Below are positions 89 to 9,413 of a DNA stretch of 34,075 bases, piece after piece. The DNA lies in IMG/VR virus record IMGVR_UViG_3300005264_001333, positions 1-34,075 of that record; one strand, written 5' to 3'. This DNA is from a virus. The notes under the pieces are model-generated. The model was not told the origin of the DNA. It searched no databases and saw only the letters and a list, made by a program, of their open reading frames with translations. Position numbers and translations under genes: made by a program. The stretch's first letter is position 1; each line of letters starts with the position of its first letter.

Positions 89-619
89 TCACGACTTAAA
101 CTCCGCATGTTTCTCCACAAGCTCAAAGTTCCCCCTGCGATTGTTCAGCATATTCCCATCCTCATGTTTCACTACATAATTTTCGGGATTATCCATAATC
201 CATCTATGTAATCTATACCCATACGAATCAGCTACAAACGGCTTACCCCGCTGATAGGTTACAAACCACCTACGTGGCTTCACCTTATACAAATCATCTA
301 AATCTATAGTGGTTTTCAAACCATCGGTAAGATGAATTATACATTCTCGTTTTTCCATATCAACATCAATCTGGTTTGGAGGTACCGGAGTACCCCCGAA
401 CAAACCAATCTTTGCATTTGTGATTGCATCTTCTCCCAACCACTCCAAAGCATAGACATCATACAGTCGCCCAGCGTCTTCTTCTTTTTTACAACTACCG
501 GCATACTGTGCAAAGCCATCAACATGCACATATACGACATAGATATTACGATGCTTATGATAGGTTACCCCTTTAAATGATGAGGTGCTATTTTTTCGCT
601 TCGTATAATACTGCCCCAT
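89..619 (-). CDS. AP2-HNH homing endonuclease
   Basis: Probable free-standing homing endonuclease. Residues about 12-70 look like an AP2 DNA-binding domain (SSFKGVTYHKHRNIYVVYV, then an EEDAGRLYDVYALEW helix). The C-terminal half resembles HNH_3 nucleases: LHRWIM, then VVKHEDGNMLNNRRGNFEL, equivalent to the usual 'vvdHidgnplNNrreNL' core. One position before the catalytic His is Lys rather than His or Asp. The ATG overlaps the stop codon of the upstream M23 gene as TAATG, with GGAG about 10 bases ahead. Such genes spread by cutting uninterrupted alleles and are common in large phages. No phage function beyond mobility is implied. It could also be a domesticated DNA-binding protein if the nuclease is dead. 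Confidence 0.82.
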   Translation of the reverse strand: MGQYYTKRKNSTSSFKGVTYHKHRNIYVVYVHVDGFAQYAGSCKKEEDAGRLYDVYALEWLGEDAITNAKIGLFGGTPVPPNQIDVDMEKRECIIHLTDGLKTTIDLDDLYKVKPRRWFVTYQRGKPFVADSYGYRLHRWIMDNPENYVVKHEDGNMLNNRRGNFELVEKHAEFKS

Positions 620-1281
620 TAGCCTACTACTCCTTTATGCTTATTCTTTACGCCTTTCACCGGCCCATTTCCATTGTCATGTATATATTTATCTGGCCAC
701 AACTCTGCAGGATCAATCCGACTGCCATAATCTTTATGACTCTCATGTATCTGCATATGTAAATGCGCACCGGTAGAATATCCGGAATTTCCTATCATCC
801 CAATAGGTGCCCCCTGCTTAACTGCAACCGGCTGTCGAAAAGTTAACAAACTCTGCACCCACTTATTATAAGACTTCCGTACATCTGCTCTACTCTGTTT
901 CATATCATTATGCATACATCTGTTCAGCATCAATCTGTAGAACTCAAATTCATCCTGATGAGCAAACATATATGTTAATCCAGATTCCCCTAACAGGATA
1001 GTACAGCACCCATAGGTATCAAAGAAAAACCGTGAAAAAATATACCAGTTGCTATCTGGCCAATAAAAATCAGCTGACTGCTCCCGGTCACTACGGTGAA
1101 TCAAATGAAAAATCAATTCTCCGGCTTCAGGCGCACGTATCACGGTCTCCCGCTCCGCTTCATTACTCGCAACGATATCCCAACCCCTGTGGTAATTCGT
1201 GCGCTCTGCAATAGGCTTACTGTACGGCCTCGGGTCATAGAATCCTGTCGTGACAATTCCTTTGTATACTGGAAACTGCAT
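619..1281 (-). CDS. M23-family peptidase (LytM-like)
   Basis: Zinc metallopeptidase of the M23/LytM class, expected to cut peptide cross-bridges of peptidoglycan. Visible motifs are HRGWD (H31, D35), FAH (H108) and the HLH pair in STGAHLHMQIHE (H173, H175), the usual zinc and catalytic residues. The stretch IGMIGNSGYSTGAH is typical of the family. About 40 charged residues are inserted between H108 and HLH, longer than usual. There is no signal peptide or membrane segment, so it would need a holin or virion carriage to reach the wall. It sits after the terminase and far from the holin-like gene, so it may be an endolysin or a virion-associated wall hydrolase. The ATG overlaps the upstream stop (TAATG). 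Confidence 0.82.
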   Translation of the reverse strand: MQFPVYKGIVTTGFYDPRPYSKPIAERTNYHRGWDIVASNEAERETVIRAPEAGELIFHLIHRSDREQSADFYWPDSNWYIFSRFFFDTYGCCTILLGESGLTYMFAHQDEFEFYRLMLNRCMHNDMKQSRADVRKSYNKWVQSLLTFRQPVAVKQGAPIGMIGNSGYSTGAHLHMQIHESHKDYGSRIDPAELWPDKYIHDNGNGPVKGVKNKHKGVVG

Positions 1282-1595
1282 TATATTTTCCCCCTCATAT
1301 CATGTATATCTGTTCGATCCATATTCCCTAATAATTCCCAAATCACTGGCCACGGATTTGTTTGATGCCAAAATGCTTCAAAATCAGATATACACCCGTC
1401 AGTTTCTGCACATTTCCTAACAGCTGAAATCAAAGACAAATACGACACTAACTTAGTTTTGCGCTCTGGTATAGCATAACTAACATCAATTACCCGTACT
1501 ATTTTTTCCTGACAAACTGTGCATATTTCAGAAGTAGTTGTATTAAATTTCTCAACATCTAAATACCCCTCACAAATTACGCACTGCCGAGTCAT
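1281..1595 (-). CDS. Small protein with two CxxC knuckles
   Basis: Function not recognised. The 104-residue product begins with CVICEGYLDVEKF and then EICTVCQEK. These two CxxC pairs about 20 residues apart should bind one zinc ion, in the style of short phage zinc-ribbon proteins. The rest is helical, with tryptophans near the C-terminus (FWHQTNPWPVIWELLG). The start codon overlaps the terminase stop by four bases (ATGA), so translation is probably coupled to the terminase. The Shine-Dalgarno match is weak, which fits coupling. Position alone suggests a packaging accessory role, but that is inference. Confidence 0.7.
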   Translation of the reverse strand: MTRQCVICEGYLDVEKFNTTTSEICTVCQEKIVRVIDVSYAIPERKTKLVSYLSLISAVRKCAETDGCISDFEAFWHQTNPWPVIWELLGNMDRTDIHDMRGKI

Positions 1596-3610
1596 TTTAT
1601 GTATTGTCCACTCAGCTTCGACTCTTCGAAACCCAATTTCAATAACACCCGTAAAACATCACCCTCATGCTCATTTGTACTTTGCACAATTATATCAATA
1701 TCCACATACCCTTGTGATTCAAACATTCGCTCACACGTAACTTCTATGCGCTTTGTATTTACTTCAGGTTTAACAGCTGTCGGCTTGTTAATTTCTCGCT
1801 CTTTATTAGCTAAAAATACTTCCGGTGTTAAATCTGTCATCTTTGCAAGCTCCAGCTTATTCTCAACATCTACGGGTAGTACCTCATCAGCTTGGTCAGC
1901 AATCATACCCTTTGCACTTTCTTCAAAGAATTCCCACACACTTGAATTCGGACTCAATAAACTAGCCTGTAAACAGTATGCTTCAGCAAGAAAAAAGTGA
2001 TCGGGCTTGCTATGCCTCCACCGATATACTGATTTCTCAGGATTAGTTTCATTCGCATCTAAAACACGGGTCGATGCCATCATCTGTTCATAATAATTCC
2101 CGTGGTCTATAAACTCAGCATTCATTGGATTGATATAATTACCAAGCTCAAACCCCTGTTTAACTGCGTCAAGAATAGATGTTCTATCCATCCTAACTTC
2201 CCGAATATGTTTATGCTTGGTAAGCTCTGCTACTTTCTCTTGAAACCGACTCGACCACATATACCGAAAATCATCTTTCAACTCAGCAACCTTATGAATC
2301 TCTGGCATAGAATCTATAACACCCTGTTTCGGTCGCCATTCCCGTAAAACATCTGCAAGCTGACTGAACCCCGGAACTGTAAAAGCATCTATCAATCTAA
2401 ACTTATACCCATAGCCTACAGCATTCCGAATCTTCTCTCGAATCACAACATGTAAAACTTCACCAACATCTATACCAACATACCGAGAATATGTTTTTTC
2501 TGTCTTCACAACTGGAAATTCATAATCATCTCTACACTTATTCAAACTTGCCCGTGTTAACTTAGCACCAGCTGATGAATAAGCTTTACCTAAATCCGAA
2601 TTTTGAAAAACCTGTATCTTCCGATCATTCCCTAACGCCTTCGTATGTTTATCTATCAGCGCATCTAATGTAGTAAACTTTGAAAATAATTTACTTACCC
2701 TATACCCCTTCCATTTTCGCTTATCATAACTATGTACCCAACGCCCTTGTTTCAACCGCTCTACTACACCCCCACAATCATGAATAAGCTGTGCATCAGT
2801 ACTACTTCCGGGGATATAATGTGGATCTCTCGCCCGATAAGCATTGGCTCCTATCTGCTCTACAACGTGCTTTTCAAAATCAGGTGTGAACCATTTCCCA
2901 CATCTCGGACACTTTAAATTCCATTCTCCCTGTGTACTTTCCTGATACCGCTCATCAATTCCAAATCCCTCTACCGTAGGGTTAGAAATTTCCCTCTGAT
3001 ATGCGTAAGGTGAGGCCGTCAGCCTATCAGGGAGCAATAAAAGATTACTGAGGTCACACCTATCCAATTCATCCACATATGCGGAATCTACGGGAATTTC
3101 AATAAACTCATCCTCAACATTTGAACCTACATACGCAAGTGTACCTTTTCCAAAATGCATAAGTGACGTTCGATGTACATGCGTTTCAGCCTCTGCAACT
3201 GCCCGAGCATATCGAGGCACTTTTCTATGTAATTTATAAATTCTATTATTTACAAACCTATTCCGAATCTCATACTTCGGCAAAACATACATCACAGTCA
3301 TACCCCGTTCAGAAGCTTCAATATGACTCTGAATAATGTACAATTCTGACAATCCACACTGCACTGATTTAATAACACATTGGTTTGGTTCTTTATCAAT
3401 GTTCATATACATTGCCAATAAATAATGTGCATCTTCAAAATCCATCGGCATACCACGAGTATTCACATGATCATAAATACCAACATGTAATGCCGGATAA
3501 TTAAATGTCATCAAATCTATATCTGCCTTATGCCCTTCATTGATAACCACTTCATTTTTAGTAATCTGTTGATCAATATCTTTAACACTACTCAGTGGCA
3601 TTTGCTTCAT
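1592..3610 (-). CDS. Terminase large subunit (GpA-type)
   Basis: DNA-packaging motor: an ATPase that pumps DNA into the prohead and a nuclease that cuts concatemers. The ATP site is the deviant form seen in lambda gpA (KSARVGYSK there, KSVQCGLSE here at residues 81-89), lacking a classical GKT/S. Walker B is AYVDELD (178-183). A CPRCG knuckle follows (C234, C237). The nuclease domain opens with YVGIDVGE (D381), followed by GVIDSMPE and, near the end, KPDHFFLAEA. At 672 residues it is near the usual GpA length (about 600-650). A second in-frame ATG three codons later (position 3601) is better spaced from the upstream GGAG and may be the true start. The upstream neighbour is a probable small subunit. 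Confidence 0.85.
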   Translation of the reverse strand: MKQMPLSSVKDIDQQITKNEVVINEGHKADIDLMTFNYPALHVGIYDHVNTRGMPMDFEDAHYLLAMYMNIDKEPNQCVIKSVQCGLSELYIIQSHIEASERGMTVMYVLPKYEIRNRFVNNRIYKLHRKVPRYARAVAEAETHVHRTSLMHFGKGTLAYVGSNVEDEFIEIPVDSAYVDELDRCDLSNLLLLPDRLTASPYAYQREISNPTVEGFGIDERYQESTQGEWNLKCPRCGKWFTPDFEKHVVEQIGANAYRARDPHYIPGSSTDAQLIHDCGGVVERLKQGRWVHSYDKRKWKGYRVSKLFSKFTTLDALIDKHTKALGNDRKIQVFQNSDLGKAYSSAGAKLTRASLNKCRDDYEFPVVKTEKTYSRYVGIDVGEVLHVVIREKIRNAVGYGYKFRLIDAFTVPGFSQLADVLREWRPKQGVIDSMPEIHKVAELKDDFRYMWSSRFQEKVAELTKHKHIREVRMDRTSILDAVKQGFELGNYINPMNAEFIDHGNYYEQMMASTRVLDANETNPEKSVYRWRHSKPDHFFLAEAYCLQASLLSPNSSVWEFFEESAKGMIADQADEVLPVDVENKLELAKMTDLTPEVFLANKEREINKPTAVKPEVNTKRIEVTCERMFESQGYVDIDIIVQSTNEHEGDVLRVLLKLGFEESKLSGQYIK

Positions 3611-4292
3611 TCTCCAATATAGACTTCTTTAAATCTTCCAAATATATATTTTCTTCCCGTACTTCCGCCATCATCTCAGGTGTATATTCGAAACCTTCAG
3701 CAGTTTTAGGTACAGCTACACTCGCTTCACTTTGAGCATTTGTATTTATCTGAACCTGCATAGTATTCAAAGCCTTCGGACTCTCTGATGTAGCCTCACC
3801 ATTTACAACACCATATACAAACCTTACGGTATCTAATACCTCTTTAGCATTATCAACTGTAATGCGCATATCTAAAAGTTTGTTCATAACCTCAAAGGTT
3901 TTACGCTCCAAATTCAACCGCTGACCATACATCCACGTTTTACGCTCCATTTTAGTAACGGCAATCCATGTAATCACACCCGGATCTTTTAACCAATTCC
4001 TAATCGTAGAAGGGTTAACCCCGTATACCCGCCCCCAATCTACCCAGCTTTTATGTTCAGTAGCAAATCGAAAGGAAAAATCCCGTTTGTGTTCGGGTAA
4101 TTTCGGTAACTTTTTCAGGTCAGGTAAATCTTCAACATCGATAAACTTACTTACCCCCGGAGAAGCATAGGACTTCACAAGTGCCATAGGCCGATCTATA
4201 TCAATATGCACCTCATCAGAATTCTTTAAATACTTATTTGTTAATCGCTCCAAAGAAGAGTAATCAACTGTATCTTCAGGTGTCTTCTTCAT
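3588..4292 (-). CDS. Probable terminase small subunit
   Basis: Immediately upstream of the large terminase gene and overlapping it by about 23 bases. A helix-turn-helix is visible near residues 65-90 (WVDWGRVYGVNPSTIRNWL), the type of DNA-recognition element expected of a small terminase subunit that binds packaging sites. A helical oligomerisation-like region follows (LDMRITVDNAKEVLDTVRF). The chosen start, MKKTPED, has GGAG five bases upstream. An in-frame GTG fifteen codons earlier (4337) would give 249 residues but lacks a clear ribosome site. The identification rests on position, length and HTH, not on a specific family match. Confidence 0.6.
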   Translation of the reverse strand: MKKTPEDTVDYSSLERLTNKYLKNSDEVHIDIDRPMALVKSYASPGVSKFIDVEDLPDLKKLPKLPEHKRDFSFRFATEHKSWVDWGRVYGVNPSTIRNWLKDPGVITWIAVTKMERKTWMYGQRLNLERKTFEVMNKLLDMRITVDNAKEVLDTVRFVYGVVNGEATSESPKALNTMQVQINTNAQSEASVAVPKTAEGFEYTPEMMAEVREENIYLEDLKKSILENEANATE

Positions 4293-4710
4293 CCGTACTC
4301 CATTCTTTCTGTTCTCTAACTGAATTAGGTGCCACACGTAGTACCTTTAGCAATATTTCTACCTGTTTTGCATCTAATAAGGCAACTGATGTAGTATCAT
4401 TCACATCTAATTGTATCACGCCCCTATCAAAAGCATTACCGATTTTATCTACTACCAATGCAGGAGACTCAAAACCATCCCCCTTCGCTGTTAATGGTGG
4501 ACGCTCTACAATCTGCACAGATATTTCACCACTCACACTATAAAACTTTCGATCATCTTTATTCAGCTTTACTCGGGGTTTTCTTTTTGCGGGTAGCTTT
4601 TTCTCTACCGGAGCTGTTGCTTTCCCTATCTTTTTTAATAAGTCGTCCGCTGATTTGCTCGACCTCTTTATTGATTGTGTACCCTCTGTATTTTTTTTCC
4701 GGGGTGGCAT
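4276..4710 (-). CDS. Lys-rich protein of unknown function
   Basis: Function not recognised. The first 50 residues are strongly basic and low in complexity (MPPRKKNTEG..., KKLPAKRKPRVKLNKDD). The rest looks like a compact beta-rich domain (SVSGEISVQIVERPPL, GVIQLDVNDTTSVALLD) with a helical end. A strong ribosome site, GGAGG seven bases before ATG, supports this start even though it lies inside the upstream gene. The two genes share about 150 bases in different frames. The basic tail suggests nucleic-acid binding, but that is inference. Confidence 0.6.
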   Translation of the reverse strand: MPPRKKNTEGTQSIKRSSKSADDLLKKIGKATAPVEKKLPAKRKPRVKLNKDDRKFYSVSGEISVQIVERPPLTAKGDGFESPALVVDKIGNAFDRGVIQLDVNDTTSVALLDAKQVEILLKVLRVAPNSVREQKEWSTDEEDT

Positions 4711-4936
4711 CTGCTATCCTCCATTTCAACCATCTCTTAATTGTAAACCCTTTATAACTAATTCTACGAAAATAACCACAATCATTCCCTAAATTCCGAG
4801 TAATACATAGATGCATCCCTCTGACATCGATTTTTTTCCGTAAAAACCCGTCTTTAAACTCAGCGGTTGCAGTACAATTAGGTTGACTCCCTACAAAAAA
4901 TATAAAAGCACAGCGATTACAATGCACTCTTTTCAT
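4559..4936 (-). CDS. Small Cys-containing protein, unknown
   Basis: Function not recognised. The N-terminus has cysteines that could form a metal site or disulfides (HCNRCAFIFF, QPNCTATAEF, HLCITRN, NDCGYF), and the last 40 residues are basic and disordered-looking. AGGAG seven bases before ATG is a good ribosome site, so it is probably translated. Its 3' third overlaps the next gene out of frame for about 150 bases. In that shared stretch both products are lysine-rich tails, an unusually economical arrangement. The start overlaps the end of the upstream gene by about 20 bases. Confidence 0.55.
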   Translation of the reverse strand: MKRVHCNRCAFIFFVGSQPNCTATAEFKDGFLRKKIDVRGMHLCITRNLGNDCGYFRRISYKGFTIKRWLKWRIADATPEKKYRGYTINKEVEQISGRLIKKDRESNSSGREKATRKKKTPSKAE

Positions 4937-5585
4937 AATACGCTCCTAATAAATAAGTATCTAATATCTGCGAATTTAATATGTATGTCTCTTCTCGCTC
5001 ATACCCTAAATCAATGGCAATGTACGTTTTTTCAAACTCTTTACAATCATCGTGGATAGGTAGATGCTTAAAAGCACCACACTCACAAGATAATCGAGAA
5101 TTATATGTCGCATAAATATAAGGAACCCCGGTAATCACCCATTCAAAACATCGTAAAAATGCAGAATTCTCAATAGCATATGATTTTAATTCAGGTAAAT
5201 ACCCTAACCCATATAGTGAGAACCGCTTAATCTTACCATCTGAAAAGGCATCTTTAAATTGTAACTCACGATCAAATGCTGTTGCATAAGGTATAGCTAG
5301 CCCTAACCCCTCCATATTCGGCAACTTGTCTGTATATTTTGCAACAATCGTCACCTTGTCTCTCGGCCAATCATCAAACCAAGCCAACTGATCGGGTCTA
5401 CAAAAAACACTTTGGACAACTGTTATCAAGGGTACAAGACTCTCCGGAAAAGCATCCAATGTAGTAAAATCTACATGCACAGACCTATTATGAACCTTTA
5501 ATACTTCCGCCCCACAGATCACAGAATTTACAACACCTTTACTCTTCTGATACTGGTAATACGGCAGTCTCTGTAGAATCCGCAT
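4917..5585 (-). CDS. Conserved-looking protein of unknown function
   Basis: I do not recognise this 222-residue protein. It is a well-formed globular sequence with alternating strands and helices (VHVDFTTLDAF, DKVTIVAKYTD, KIKRFSLYGLGYLPELKSY, FEWVITGVPYIYATY), reminiscent of an alpha/beta barrel. A very distant relation to phage transglycosylase-like barrels crossed my mind but no catalytic signature is visible. CECGAFKH and later HDDC could form a zinc site. The ATG lies inside the upstream gene, next to a run of seven G in a GA-rich stretch that can serve as ribosome site. The gene sits between a dUTPase-fold-like protein and small unknown proteins. Confidence 0.55.
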   Translation of the reverse strand: MRILQRLPYYQYQKSKGVVNSVICGAEVLKVHNRSVHVDFTTLDAFPESLVPLITVVQSVFCRPDQLAWFDDWPRDKVTIVAKYTDKLPNMEGLGLAIPYATAFDRELQFKDAFSDGKIKRFSLYGLGYLPELKSYAIENSAFLRCFEWVITGVPYIYATYNSRLSCECGAFKHLPIHDDCKEFEKTYIAIDLGYEREETYILNSQILDTYLLGAYYEKSAL

Positions 5586-6108
5586 CCTTCCCCCCCTTCT
5601 TCTCTTTAGTGGTGGTTCCTTTTCCCTTACCTTTTGCGGATATCTTCTTTTCTGCTACCGACACATCTTTAAGAACCAAATCACACAATGTGACCATACT
5701 ATCTAACTCAGCCTTCCGGGTACAATACAACCCAAATTCTATAGCCCCAGCTTTACTAATTTCTGAACTAGTGATAACCCCACCCATCATAGCAAGATCA
5801 GCATTACCTATAATTTCAGCGACAACCCCTTTAGGTAAATCCTCAACCAACTCAATCTGAGTAGTTATCTGATATGAACACCCTGCTCTAAAATAAAACG
5901 GTATACGGGAAGTCATAGGTGAGAATAATCTACCATGCCCCACAACCTGCTCCCGAGTACCATTAAAATAAATCTGAACTCTACCTTCTGCCTGTCTAAC
6001 AAAATGCATCCTCAGTGCTAATTTTTCATCATTTATTTCTAAACGACCCCATGCCCCCTCCCCTACGGAGCTAAATTTCTCTTCCAATTTACTTACGGAT
6101 AATCGCAT
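5539..6108 (-). CDS. Possible dUTPase/dCTP-deaminase-fold protein
   Basis: Tentative. The stretch ELVEDLPKGVVAEIIGNADLA (split: LPKGVVAEIIGN at about 92-103, then MMGGVITSSEISKAGAIEF) has the rhythm of trimeric dUTPases and dCTP deaminases ('lP.g..a.i..rSgla..g......g.id.gy.Gei.'). The catalytic Ser/Arg of motif 2 and the Asp/Tyr of motif 3 are not evident. If the fold is right, the enzyme may be inactive or act on another nucleotide. The C-terminus is a Lys/Gly-rich tail. The gene is coupled to the polymerase stop (TAATG) with GGAGG six bases before ATG. It could equally be an unrelated beta-sandwich protein. Confidence 0.4.
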   Translation of the reverse strand: MRLSVSKLEEKFSSVGEGAWGRLEINDEKLALRMHFVRQAEGRVQIYFNGTREQVVGHGRLFSPMTSRIPFYFRAGCSYQITTQIELVEDLPKGVVAEIIGNADLAMMGGVITSSEISKAGAIEFGLYCTRKAELDSMVTLCDLVLKDVSVAEKKISAKGKGKGTTTKEKKGGKDADSTETAVLPVSEE

Positions 6109-9100
6109 TATCTGCCTCCTACTTTATATCCTACTGACTCAAATATTTTTTTAACCCGAGAATCATTTCCAGATCCCCATCGGGTCATTGTTTCAATCTC
6201 AACTCGCATACGTACTGGTAATATTTTAAGAGGTGTCTCAAAAGCGATTGTAACCATATCTTTTAAATCATCAATCTCAGGCTCTACTGCGTCTATGATA
6301 ACACAGTCATGTACAGTATGTACAATATCTGAATCCGCTTTCATTTTCCGCATAGCCCGATCAACTCTCACAATACCATTCTGCGTATAATCAGATGCAC
6401 CACTTTGTATAGGTGCATTTTTCCCTTGCCGACACGCACGGGCAACAGCGTACTCATCATCTCGCTGTGCATCTGGTAAATGGCGTTTCCGATTAAACAA
6501 CGACATCACATACCCATGTTCTATAACAAACTTATCTGACCAATCCAAGTAAGAAGCCACAGCTGGTAACATTTTAAAGTACCGGTACATAAAGTCTTCA
6601 ATTTCTTCAACAGGTAAACCCAATATTTTAGATAATCCAACTGCACTGATACCATACACCAATCCAAAATTCACACGCTTCGCAATCAACCGCTCTGCTT
6701 TAGTAGGTTTATTATCTTCGGGTAAACCCATAACCAAATTATAAGTATCAGCGTGTAAGTCCCGCCCCTCTCGAAATGCCCGTAAAAAGAATTCCTCACC
6801 ACTTACAACTGCTAAATACACAAGCTCTGCAGACTTCAAATCTGCTTCAAGTAACTGTCTACCCTCCGAAGCAATATACATCGACCGTAGAAAACCATCG
6901 TTAGGTACATTCTGCAAAGATGGTTTTGAACAATTATGTACTAAAAAACCATTAGCAACAAATGACTCATCTACATCTACAGTGAGATCGAAGACTTGTA
7001 TTTCTCCCACAAAGGTGAATGCCTTAACCCTTTCCACTTGCGGTGTAACTTGGTATGCCCTGCTTTTGTGCATAGTACCAAATTGTCCCTTTGATTGTTT
7101 AAAGGATTGCCATCGATATGATGCACCACTAATGAACTGTCTAAATCTGCCGGGTGTATGCCTAACATTTGTGCCATTATTATCCTGTGATAAAAATAAG
7201 GTTTGCCATCTACATTTAAAACTAAATAACCATAACCATCTGGACGTACTCCCTTCCAATTGGGATGGTCTTCTCCTTTTCGCCCTGTCATATAGTTTTT
7301 CCCAGCAATCTTGGATCGAGAATACCTTATTGCTTTTTCTGCTTGATACACTTCCTTCGTTAATACTTTCTGTAAAGCCCCTCTCACATTCTGCACTGTT
7401 GTGTCCAATGCCTTTGCAATTTGAGTTACAGTTGGTTTTGAGACCGTCCCAACATACATTTTCCGAACATTTTCCAGAAATTCTACATCGTTCATATGCA
7501 TCTTTGATATTGACATAATATAACTCCCTAACATCCTTTGCTTCCACCCAACCATCTGGTGTATAGAATTTATGGTCAGTTGTGCAAAATATATCACGGT
7601 CTCTACCTATCGTCAACTTATACACAGGTCTAACACCTTGATCAATAAGCTGATCAATACGTCTAACTACCCCTTTATGAGATATAGTTAACATACCCGC
7701 CTTTACATCTTCTATAGGTATGCATCCCTTATTAGTTACAATTAACGTTCCTTTTGCTAAACAACTCAATCTACCGGTAACAGTTCCTGTAAAATTAAAA
7801 TTGGTATGTACCCGCCCATCCAAACCACTGAAAGTTATAGCTTGTTTAGCATGTGTCCCTATCATAGTTTTCAAGTAACTATAATCAGATAAATACTGTG
7901 CTACCTCTCCATTTTTCTGCTCAGCACAATAGTCAATACTTTTTGCATCCACGCTGTATCCAGTTTTAGTTTTACGCAAAGGTTTTAACTTCAAATCCTT
8001 AAAGAGAACTGCTTGCAATTGGGTACCTGAATTTATATTAAACTTACGACCGGCACAACCATAAATACTTTCTTCAAGTTTATGTTTTACAGCATCCCCT
8101 GTATCAATTAAATACTCTACCCATTCCCGGTCTACTCTAAAACCATTAACCTCTGCCCTACTTGCAACTGCTCTGGCGGGCATAGTGATCTTACTGAAAA
8201 GAGGAAGTAACCCAGCAGTTCGCAATTTCTTTTTCTGCTGAACATATAATGTAAATGTGGATGTAGCATCAAGCCCACCATACTTAGATATTAACTCAAA
8301 TGGAATCTCACTATAATCTTCTTTAATTTTATGCGCCTTCTTATATAAATCAAGCTCAAAATCATACCCCCCATAGGAAGTAAATACCCATGATAAATCT
8401 TTTAAATTACAGGGGAAATTCTCATCAAGCATCTGCGCACCAATCATGGTATCCCAACAGTTACGGGTATATATTGACCAGCTTTCTCCGGAATGAACAC
8501 GGGCTTCGAAAGCCATATTATGCATTATTTTCAAATGTTTTGGATTTCGTAATAATTTTATGTACTGGTGAAATACAACAGGGTCTTCCATCAAAGTATC
8601 AATATGCATATACCAACCCTGCGTTTCTGATACTGCAAAAGAACAACCTATAATATATTTACGCTCCTCCCCCTTCCCCCCGGTTTCGATATCATATGAG
8701 AATACCCCTGCCTCTTCACATTTTCTTATTACTGCTAAAGCTTGCTTCGGAGTACTTATAACAGTATTCTTTGGATAAGGTGCAACCGGATAATCATTAT
8801 TGCAATATTCATTCATCAATTCCAAATCAGATATTGCCTTCTCCGTATCGTAGGTCAATCCATTTAGATCTTTATTCCATAAAAATGTAGGTGAAGTCAT
8901 CGGAATAACCCAACAATTAAACTCTCTATGCCAAATTGCTTTTCCCCGCCATTTCATTATACCTGATACCTTGGCATCTTTCTTATCTGCCTTCTTATAC
9001 GCAAACCACAGTACACTGGCAAGTGCTACATTTCCCATCACACCAATTACTTTAGGCTTATGTTTCTTTACTTCAGCCTCTAAATAGGAATAACATTGTA

Positions 9101-9413
9101 AAATTGCAGGTATAGATGGTTTGGAATTTACACATTTCACAGCATAAGTAAACCGGATATCATCTTCAGACAGCCCTGCTCTTGGTAATAATTCATCCCG
9201 TAAAAACATCGCACCGGGGTTTGTATAAATATCCCCTACATCATCTTCAGGAATACTCGGAGAGGTATCCACCAACATCAAAGGTTTGTAATCACCTACC
9301 CCTTCTGTACAAATATTTAATGTCTTTTTTGAACACTGACAGCGGGAACACTCAGGATTATAAACAGGGTCTGCTATTATTATATCTTTCAAAGTTTTTT
9401 TAACTTTCGGCAT
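6108..9413 (-). CDS. Family A DNA polymerase with UDG-like domain and intein
   Basis: Replicative polymerase precursor of 1101 residues, 824 after intein removal. Residues 1-195 form a family-4-UDG-like domain with the four Fe-S-type cysteines (C22, C25, C94, C107) but altered catalytic motifs. The 3'-5' exonuclease follows: SYDIET (D241, E243), NMAFEARV (Glu303 where Asp is usual), WDTMIGAQML and YGGLD (Y378, D382). The polymerase core has motif A ADLKSAEL (D858), motif B KRVNFGLVYG (K912, F916, Y920) and motif C VHDC (D1036), where the usual HDE is HDC. An intein interrupts the TGRLS/S motif. No 5' nuclease domain is present; a separate gene upstream supplies it. Start ATG with GAGGGG ahead. 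UDG-polymerase fusions are, from memory, known in SPO1-like phages. Confidence 0.93.
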   Translation of the reverse strand: MPKVKKTLKDIIIADPVYNPECSRCQCSKKTLNICTEGVGDYKPLMLVDTSPSIPEDDVGDIYTNPGAMFLRDELLPRAGLSEDDIRFTYAVKCVNSKPSIPAILQCYSYLEAEVKKHKPKVIGVMGNVALASVLWFAYKKADKKDAKVSGIMKWRGKAIWHREFNCWVIPMTSPTFLWNKDLNGLTYDTEKAISDLELMNEYCNNDYPVAPYPKNTVISTPKQALAVIRKCEEAGVFSYDIETGGKGEERKYIIGCSFAVSETQGWYMHIDTLMEDPVVFHQYIKLLRNPKHLKIMHNMAFEARVHSGESWSIYTRNCWDTMIGAQMLDENFPCNLKDLSWVFTSYGGYDFELDLYKKAHKIKEDYSEIPFELISKYGGLDATSTFTLYVQQKKKLRTAGLLPLFSKITMPARAVASRAEVNGFRVDREWVEYLIDTGDAVKHKLEESIYGCAGRKFNINSGTQLQAVLFKDLKLKPLRKTKTGYSVDAKSIDYCAEQKNGEVAQYLSDYSYLKTMIGTHAKQAITFSGLDGRVHTNFNFTGTVTGRLSCLAKGTLIVTNKGCIPIEDVKAGMLTISHKGVVRRIDQLIDQGVRPVYKLTIGRDRDIFCTTDHKFYTPDGWVEAKDVRELYYVNIKDAYERCRISGKCSENVCWDGLKTNCNSNCKGIGHNSAECERGFTESINEGSVSSRKSNKVFSIQDCWEKLYDRAKRRRPSQLEGSTSRWLWLFSFKCRWQTLFLSQDNNGTNVRHTPGRFRQFISGASYRWQSFKQSKGQFGTMHKSRAYQVTPQVERVKAFTFVGEIQVFDLTVDVDESFVANGFLVHNCSKPSLQNVPNDGFLRSMYIASEGRQLLEADLKSAELVYLAVVSGEEFFLRAFREGRDLHADTYNLVMGLPEDNKPTKAERLIAKRVNFGLVYGISAVGLSKILGLPVEEIEDFMYRYFKMLPAVASYLDWSDKFVIEHGYVMSLFNRKRHLPDAQRDDEYAVARACRQGKNAPIQSGASDYTQNGIVRVDRAMRKMKADSDIVHTVHDCVIIDAVEPEIDDLKDMVTIAFETPLKILPVRMRVEIETMTRWGSGNDSRVKKIFESVGYKVGGR
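6933..7763 (-). other. Intein in polymerase (277 residues) with out-of-frame HNH gene inside
   Basis: Protein-splicing element at polymerase residues 551-827. It begins CLAKGTLIVTNKGCIPIEDV (block A, Cys1), has block B DIFCTTDHKFYT (TxxH), and ends with VFDLTVDVDESF and FLVHN followed by Cys+1 (blocks F and G, terminal His-Asn). Splicing would rejoin TGRLS to CSKPSLQNVPN, the highly conserved motif upstream of polymerase motif A, a typical intein site. The linker between blocks B and F (about 150 residues, rich in Ser, Cys, Arg and Trp) resembles no nuclease in this frame. In another frame the same DNA encodes a complete HNH endonuclease. All splicing residues look intact. Confidence 0.92.
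6977..7516 (-). CDS. HNH homing endonuclease nested in intein in another frame
   Basis: A 179-residue endonuclease starting MSISKMHMNDVEF. An N-terminal HTH-like region (VTQIAKALDTTVQNVRGALQ) is followed by the motif GEDHPNWKGVRPDGYGYLVL and a textbook HNH_3 core: YHRIIMAQMLG, LVVHHIDGNPLNNQRDNL and a distal GHTKLHRK. AGGGAG seven bases before ATG is a strong ribosome site, so it is probably translated on its own rather than as part of the intein. An in-frame ATG at 7597 exists but has no better support. The gene lies wholly within the intein-coding DNA, offset by one base, and its last 18 or so codons overlap intein block F. Its likely target is the intein-less polymerase allele, which is inference. 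Confidence 0.88.
   Translation of the reverse strand: MSISKMHMNDVEFLENVRKMYVGTVSKPTVTQIAKALDTTVQNVRGALQKVLTKEVYQAEKAIRYSRSKIAGKNYMTGRKGEDHPNWKGVRPDGYGYLVLNVDGKPYFYHRIIMAQMLGIHPADLDSSLVVHHIDGNPLNNQRDNLVLCTKAGHTKLHRKWKGLRHSPLWEKYKSSISL

Follow-up and report, generated by a model that had tools for sequence, protein, structure and literature searches.

This study asked how a phage DNA polymerase gene can carry, inside its intein and out of frame with it, a complete HNH homing endonuclease gene, whether this layout is real, and what it may do. The locus lies in a 34,075-base IMG/VR virus record, analysed over its whole length and here called the window, which comes from a tailed phage and encodes a terminase, a DnaB-like helicase, a UvsX-like recombinase and baseplate proteins. 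A family A DNA polymerase precursor of 1101 aa is encoded on the minus strand (6108..9413), consisting of a UDG4-like N-terminal part, a 3'-5' exonuclease and PolA (Pfam/NCBIfam DNA_pol_A, 9e-77), and is interrupted by a 277-aa intein (6933..7763, minus strand; precursor residues 551-827) inserted at TGRLS^C, without which the polymerase measures 824 aa. An N-terminal uracil-DNA glycosylase-like domain is present on the polymerases of the window (9413-6108) and of the related loci L156, L158 and L176.

The splicing motifs are in frame with both exteins and comprise Cys1, TTDH (block B), the F-block VFDLTVDVDESF, the terminal HN and Cys+1, with Pfam/NCBIfam matches to Intein_splicing (1e-9) and intein_Cterm (3e-7). 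Blocks A and B, including Cys1 and TTDH, occupy an N-terminal splicing region (7524..7763, minus strand) that is constrained in the polymerase frame and predicted with pLDDT mostly 80-96; block G, recognised by its motifs, supplies the penultimate His, the terminal Asn and Cys+1 of the C-extein (6930..6938, minus strand). In the AF2 model of the intein frame, a Hint fold is formed by residues 1-80 and 240-277 only, residues 97-239 being predicted disordered (pLDDT about 36), and the ordered parts matched PDB mini-inteins such as gp41-1 and NpuDnaB, the best (6riz and 6qaz) with a TM to target of up to 0.81. The motifs and the predicted Hint fold are those of a class 1 intein.

Within this intein, in the +1 frame relative to the polymerase, lies an HNH_3 homing endonuclease gene of 179 aa (6977..7516, minus strand; HNH_3, 1e-10) that is kept in about 20 relatives. 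The preliminary description had claimed just such a complete, out-of-frame gene, and its coordinates, lengths, motifs and 824-aa spliced polymerase were right, as was the overlap of the HNH 3' end with the coding of block F, where the stop falls 44 nt before the intein end. Its AGGAG-type ribosome site was in fact AGGGAG (7524..7529, minus strand), 7 nt 5' of the ATG at 7516. The nested layout in the window is thereby confirmed. Residues H132, H133, N141, N145, H154 and H158 of the window HNH are invariant, the HNH_3 catalytic residues among them being in place, and a 6-residue segment near the C-terminus that is present in most relatives is missing. AF2 folded the HNH frame with a mean pLDDT of 80, and a structure search with this model gave I-HmuI as the best match, although a weak one (E 0.23, probability 0.84).

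Searches of viral contigs recovered some 20 further PolA inteins with a +1 HNH at the same TGRLS^C/S site (L002, L003, L004, L090/L095, L091, L092, L093, L097, L098, L158-L163, L176, L177, L228, L329 and the fragment L207). The first contigs with PolA and a same-site intein were retrieved with the window HNH protein as query, and alignment-based searches extended the set; the polymerase as a single-sequence query found no relatives, alignments being needed, and the phage collection held no close DNA matches to the window. A scan of genome contigs gave five loci only; reading three of them in all frames showed no nesting. In an alignment of 19, the relatives shared 36-44% identity with the window HNH. 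Every full PolA locus had the HNH in +1 and an uninterrupted polymerase frame, so that neither in the window nor in these relatives is this a canonical intein with its HNH in frame. The HNH start codon (ATG, once GTG) occupied one aligned position, MS[IV]SK, and the HNH stop lay 23-74 nt before the intein end, in most cases 44 or 50 nt.

These relatives bear on two other ways of explaining the locus. An assembly or sequencing artefact, by which two compensating indels had disguised an in-frame intein nuclease, is scarcely credible: we found nothing in its favour, and the same frame offset and end distance recur in many independent assemblies and samples. Misassembly and paired indels, the latter of which the preliminary description had wished to exclude, can be ruled out because the layout is conserved across the PolA relatives. 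Programmed ribosomal frameshifting out of the polymerase frame, yielding an intein-N/HNH fusion that resembles a canonical intein nuclease, is conceivable in the window, where the HNH frame is open for 30 codons upstream of the ATG. A Shine-Dalgarno-like 4-mer, however, precedes 16 of 19 nested HNH starts (background 0.27; P = 4e-7; weak or absent in L002, L158 and L176), the start position is kept in all loci, and in L002, L004 and L093 a stop codon closes the HNH frame 0-2 codons ahead of the start. Internal initiation is favoured because of these ribosome sites and stops, and frameshifting is distinctly unlikely.

A long second frame could also stay open by chance. The preliminary description had proposed looking for stops in the linker frame of relatives, and across the nested 178-194 codons there were none in the intein frame in 20 of 20 loci, with 9-21 in the third frame (17 in the window). 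When each HNH gene was shuffled among synonymous codons, the intein frame acquired a mean of 2.8-11.7 stops; for the window the mean was 9.1 and none of 1000 shuffles was stop-free. Per locus, the probability of a stop-free frame was 0.001-0.033, and the summed log10 P of -52 over 20 loci overstates the independent evidence, because these loci share descent and include the near-identical pair L090/L095. As controls we took 104 HNH ORFs of at least 120 codons from outside the PolA nested set, of which 103 had stops in the equivalent frame; the exception, L118, sits in an open frame that is GC-rich and in which no host gene was recognised. Two of the controls, L013 and L112, were stop-free in the other frame, their HNH being nested in a C5 methylase without an intein, as in ShiLan.

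Freedom from stops is not the same as selection on the protein. Variability at first, second and third codon positions was 0.46/0.37/0.66 for the intein frame of the N block and 0.43/0.35/0.60 for the HNH frame of the nested stretch, the third position being highest in both. Over the nested stretch, the HNH frame had a pairwise amino acid identity of 0.48, against 0.25 for the intein frame and 0.26 for the third frame, which is unused; the intein frame peaked at 0.39 in the final sixth of the stretch, the overlap of HNH tail and block F. The greater part (7047..7475, minus strand) is constrained as HNH protein, and its intein-frame translation is predicted disordered (pLDDT about 36), with amino acid identity at the level of the third frame. 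The last part (6977..7046, minus strand) encodes both the HNH C-terminal tail and intein block F, and both frames are retained in the mini-intein of L156. Selection in two frames, as first suggested, therefore holds for the last 22 or so codons, to which dual coding is limited; elsewhere the intein frame is kept open but not kept as protein, because its identity there is that of the third frame. The AF2 prediction of order and disorder along the intein frame agrees with stop avoidance outside the dual-coded codons.

The layout is not confined to polymerases. A second family, first met among intein matches, consists of zinc-finger HNH_3 ORFs in the +2 frame of terminase large-subunit inteins; a search with this family, with lineages counted at 70% clustering, gave 78 nested in +2, three in +1 and 30 free or other. 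These +2 terminase lineages were counted from open frames that span the HNH, supported by motifs or by spot checks with Pfam, and openness alone is weak evidence for some of the loci because they are GC-rich. Among ten spanning frames checked with Pfam, L262, L307 and L249 were terminases with a Hint domain despite lacking a regex-motif match, L330 and L335 were PolA inteins, L364 and L314 were terminases, L234 was an intein within an unassigned protein, and L358 and L153 were methylases without an intein. Unannotated HNH genes are hidden in this way, out of frame in terL inteins, in the cultured Tetrasphaera phage TJE1 (L240:3049-3627), Acinetobacter phage Highwayman (L241:3001-3636) and Rhodobacteraceae phage LS06-2018-MD07 (L243:3001-3480), and relatives of the zinc-finger HNH stand free beside the terminase genes of PAE1, CL2 and BP10. 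The overlapping layout, present in about 100 other phage lineages and in two unrelated host genes, is thus a recurrent architecture, neither a one-off oddity nor a mistake in the data.

In-frame HNH inteins are known. That inteins usually fuse the nuclease in frame, as the preliminary description assumed, held for the LAGLIDADG inteins that we saw, but not for the HNH families retrieved here: a motif screen of these two families, PolA and terminase, found no in-frame HNH, and the search for relatives with an in-frame fusion was to this extent negative. It is somewhat more likely than not that out-of-frame nesting is standard for at least two HNH_3 families in phage inteins (+1 in PolA, +2 in terminase), that it arose at least twice, and that these inteins form a distinct, so far unnamed class in which the nuclease is a separately translated overlapping gene.

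Several other arrangements were seen alongside. In L093 (3749-8632) and L158 (1923-8372), an in-frame LAGLIDADG domain occurs in the polymerase frame besides the HNH-nested intein, accompanied in L093 by a second intein domain. L330 (3-2117) carries a nested-HNH intein at another PolA site, after PNLQQ, near the position used by group I introns. In L141 (4124-5560), PolA has an apparent split intein at the same TGRMS^ site, with an intein-N that terminates in a stop, an intein-C with its own AAGGAGG and ATG, and, a few codons further on, an intron-like insert with a related HNH. HNH_3 ORFs lie out of frame in DNA methylase genes without intein motifs, as in ShiLan, in L013 (3263-4120), L153 (1060-1749) and L358 (3800-4306), and in L059 a 2373-codon open frame (533-7651, minus strand), without a Pfam match in the part tested, has an antisense HNH ORF (3929-4480, plus strand).

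Relatives of the nested HNH in named phages bear on its origin. They occupy introns between polA exons, which are broken 5-7 codons beyond the intein site, and three of the intron loci gave weak Rfam group I matches. The polA group I introns with I-HmuI, I-PfoP3I, an HNH homing endonuclease (PMC3428280), and phiL7 gp45, which is 39% identical to the window HNH, have the same host gene, target region and HNH_3 type as the window. Their HNHs nevertheless form a separate clade and their carrier is a self-splicing RNA, so that the host frame need not stay open. That the window insert is itself a group I intron carrying an HNH ORF and removed as RNA is an idea to which these relatives lend some colour, but it is extremely improbable: covariance models from Rfam found nothing between 6700 and 8000 at E <= 5, the intein motifs are under protein-level constraint, a Hint fold is predicted and the frame is open throughout. 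The same models detected the intron HNH loci L084, L085 and L082, used as positive controls, below the gathering score.

In an unrooted HNH tree, the nested HNHs and two from bacterial genomes fell on one side and the intron HNHs on the other (100/100). On such a tree the nested HNH may derive from capture from an intron or from a shared ancestor, and trees of the inteins and exteins had too little resolution for incongruence to give a homing signal. Of the two directions first proposed, the better one is that a mini-intein took up a homing gene, because relatives from the same HNH family are found inside group I introns or as free-standing neighbours of the same target genes. The nested layout does not look like an evolutionary step, as had been suggested, but is stable, since it is kept across relatives with 36-44% HNH identity and recurs in terminase inteins. 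The two genomic HNHs of the nested clade, in a Verrucomicrobia MAG (L235:4206-5546) and Erythrobacter litoralis (L236:4257-6850, with an integrase downstream), lie just after polA-like fragments that break off at the TGRLS region, and may be escapes.

Loss is also visible. An intein without a complete nested HNH, which the preliminary description had proposed to look for, occurs in L156, the closest polymerase relative, whose 136-aa mini-intein has lost the HNH core but keeps the 3' tail (74% identical), as expected of a homing-cycle remnant. Three bases separate the near-identical L090 and L095; two of these changes are HNH replacements silent in the intein frame, one of them at a motif His. 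Such decay would fit a relic, in which the intein is still spliced and the HNH is no longer made or active in the window phage. This is unlikely, as the window HNH keeps all columns invariant among the 19 relatives, together with its start, its ribosome site and its full length.

The locus was compared with known systems. In canonical large inteins such as PI-SceI, a nuclease likewise interrupts the Hint domain at the usual place, between blocks B and F, but there it is in frame, whereas that of the window is out of frame, has its own start and stop, and ends in the coding of block F. In fractured genes, a free-standing nuclease sits between the halves of a split intein, so that one locus again holds an intein and a separately translated nuclease, but the window intein is continuous and overlaps its nuclease. 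Similar layouts may reportedly be described by Gosselin et al. in 'Actinobacteriophage Inteins: ... Non-Canonical Architecture'. Literature searches for a published out-of-frame HNH in an intein gave only ShiLan-type papers. In the ShiLan domain (Arsenault et al. 2025, PMC11855218), an HNH is concealed out of frame within the DNA methylase of a phage; as in the window, a phage gene has an insertion that stays open in the host frame and carries the HNH ORF in a different one. The ShiLan domain differs in that it has none of the motifs of an intein and is believed to remain part of the methylase, and its HNH starts at GTG with no detectable Shine-Dalgarno (PMC11855218); the outer frame in the window is an intein, and the window, having a splicing domain, is not a ShiLan-type insertion, which has no self-splicing domain. 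The nearest published case is thus a methylase insertion, not an intein, and priority for the nested-HNH intein is uncertain because PMC11855218 cites an intein preprint on 'non-canonical architecture' (Gosselin et al., 10.1101/2025.01.02.630785) for overlapping reading frames in actinobacteriophages.

The locus is very probably a composite mobile element, a class 1 mini-intein with a captured, separately translated HNH gene that would drive its homing. Sequence and prediction from sequence support the two frames, their conservation, the avoidance of stops, the internal start, the splicing motifs and the folds; splicing, HNH translation, cleavage and homing are what we infer. Ribosomes starting at the polymerase start would read the whole element in the polymerase frame, giving a precursor with a disordered intein linker of about 140 aa, from which the Hint domain would splice itself out and restore the 824-aa polymerase. 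Other ribosomes would initiate at the internal Shine-Dalgarno and ATG (7516) and make the free 179-aa HNH nuclease, which may cut or nick the intein-less polA TGRLS site of co-infecting phages, and repair would then copy the intein plus HNH across.

Inteins are taught as single polypeptides with splicing and nuclease domains in frame. Here, splicing and nuclease would be two overlapping genes, decoupling nuclease expression from splicing and allowing the nuclease to be gained or lost without domain fusion. Many phage homing nucleases would escape gene finders that forbid nested genes, and this would be so even for cultured phages like TJE1. With relatives from the same HNH families found at the same target genes in all three states, intron-borne, free-standing and nested, the acquisition of endonucleases by inteins becomes directly testable.
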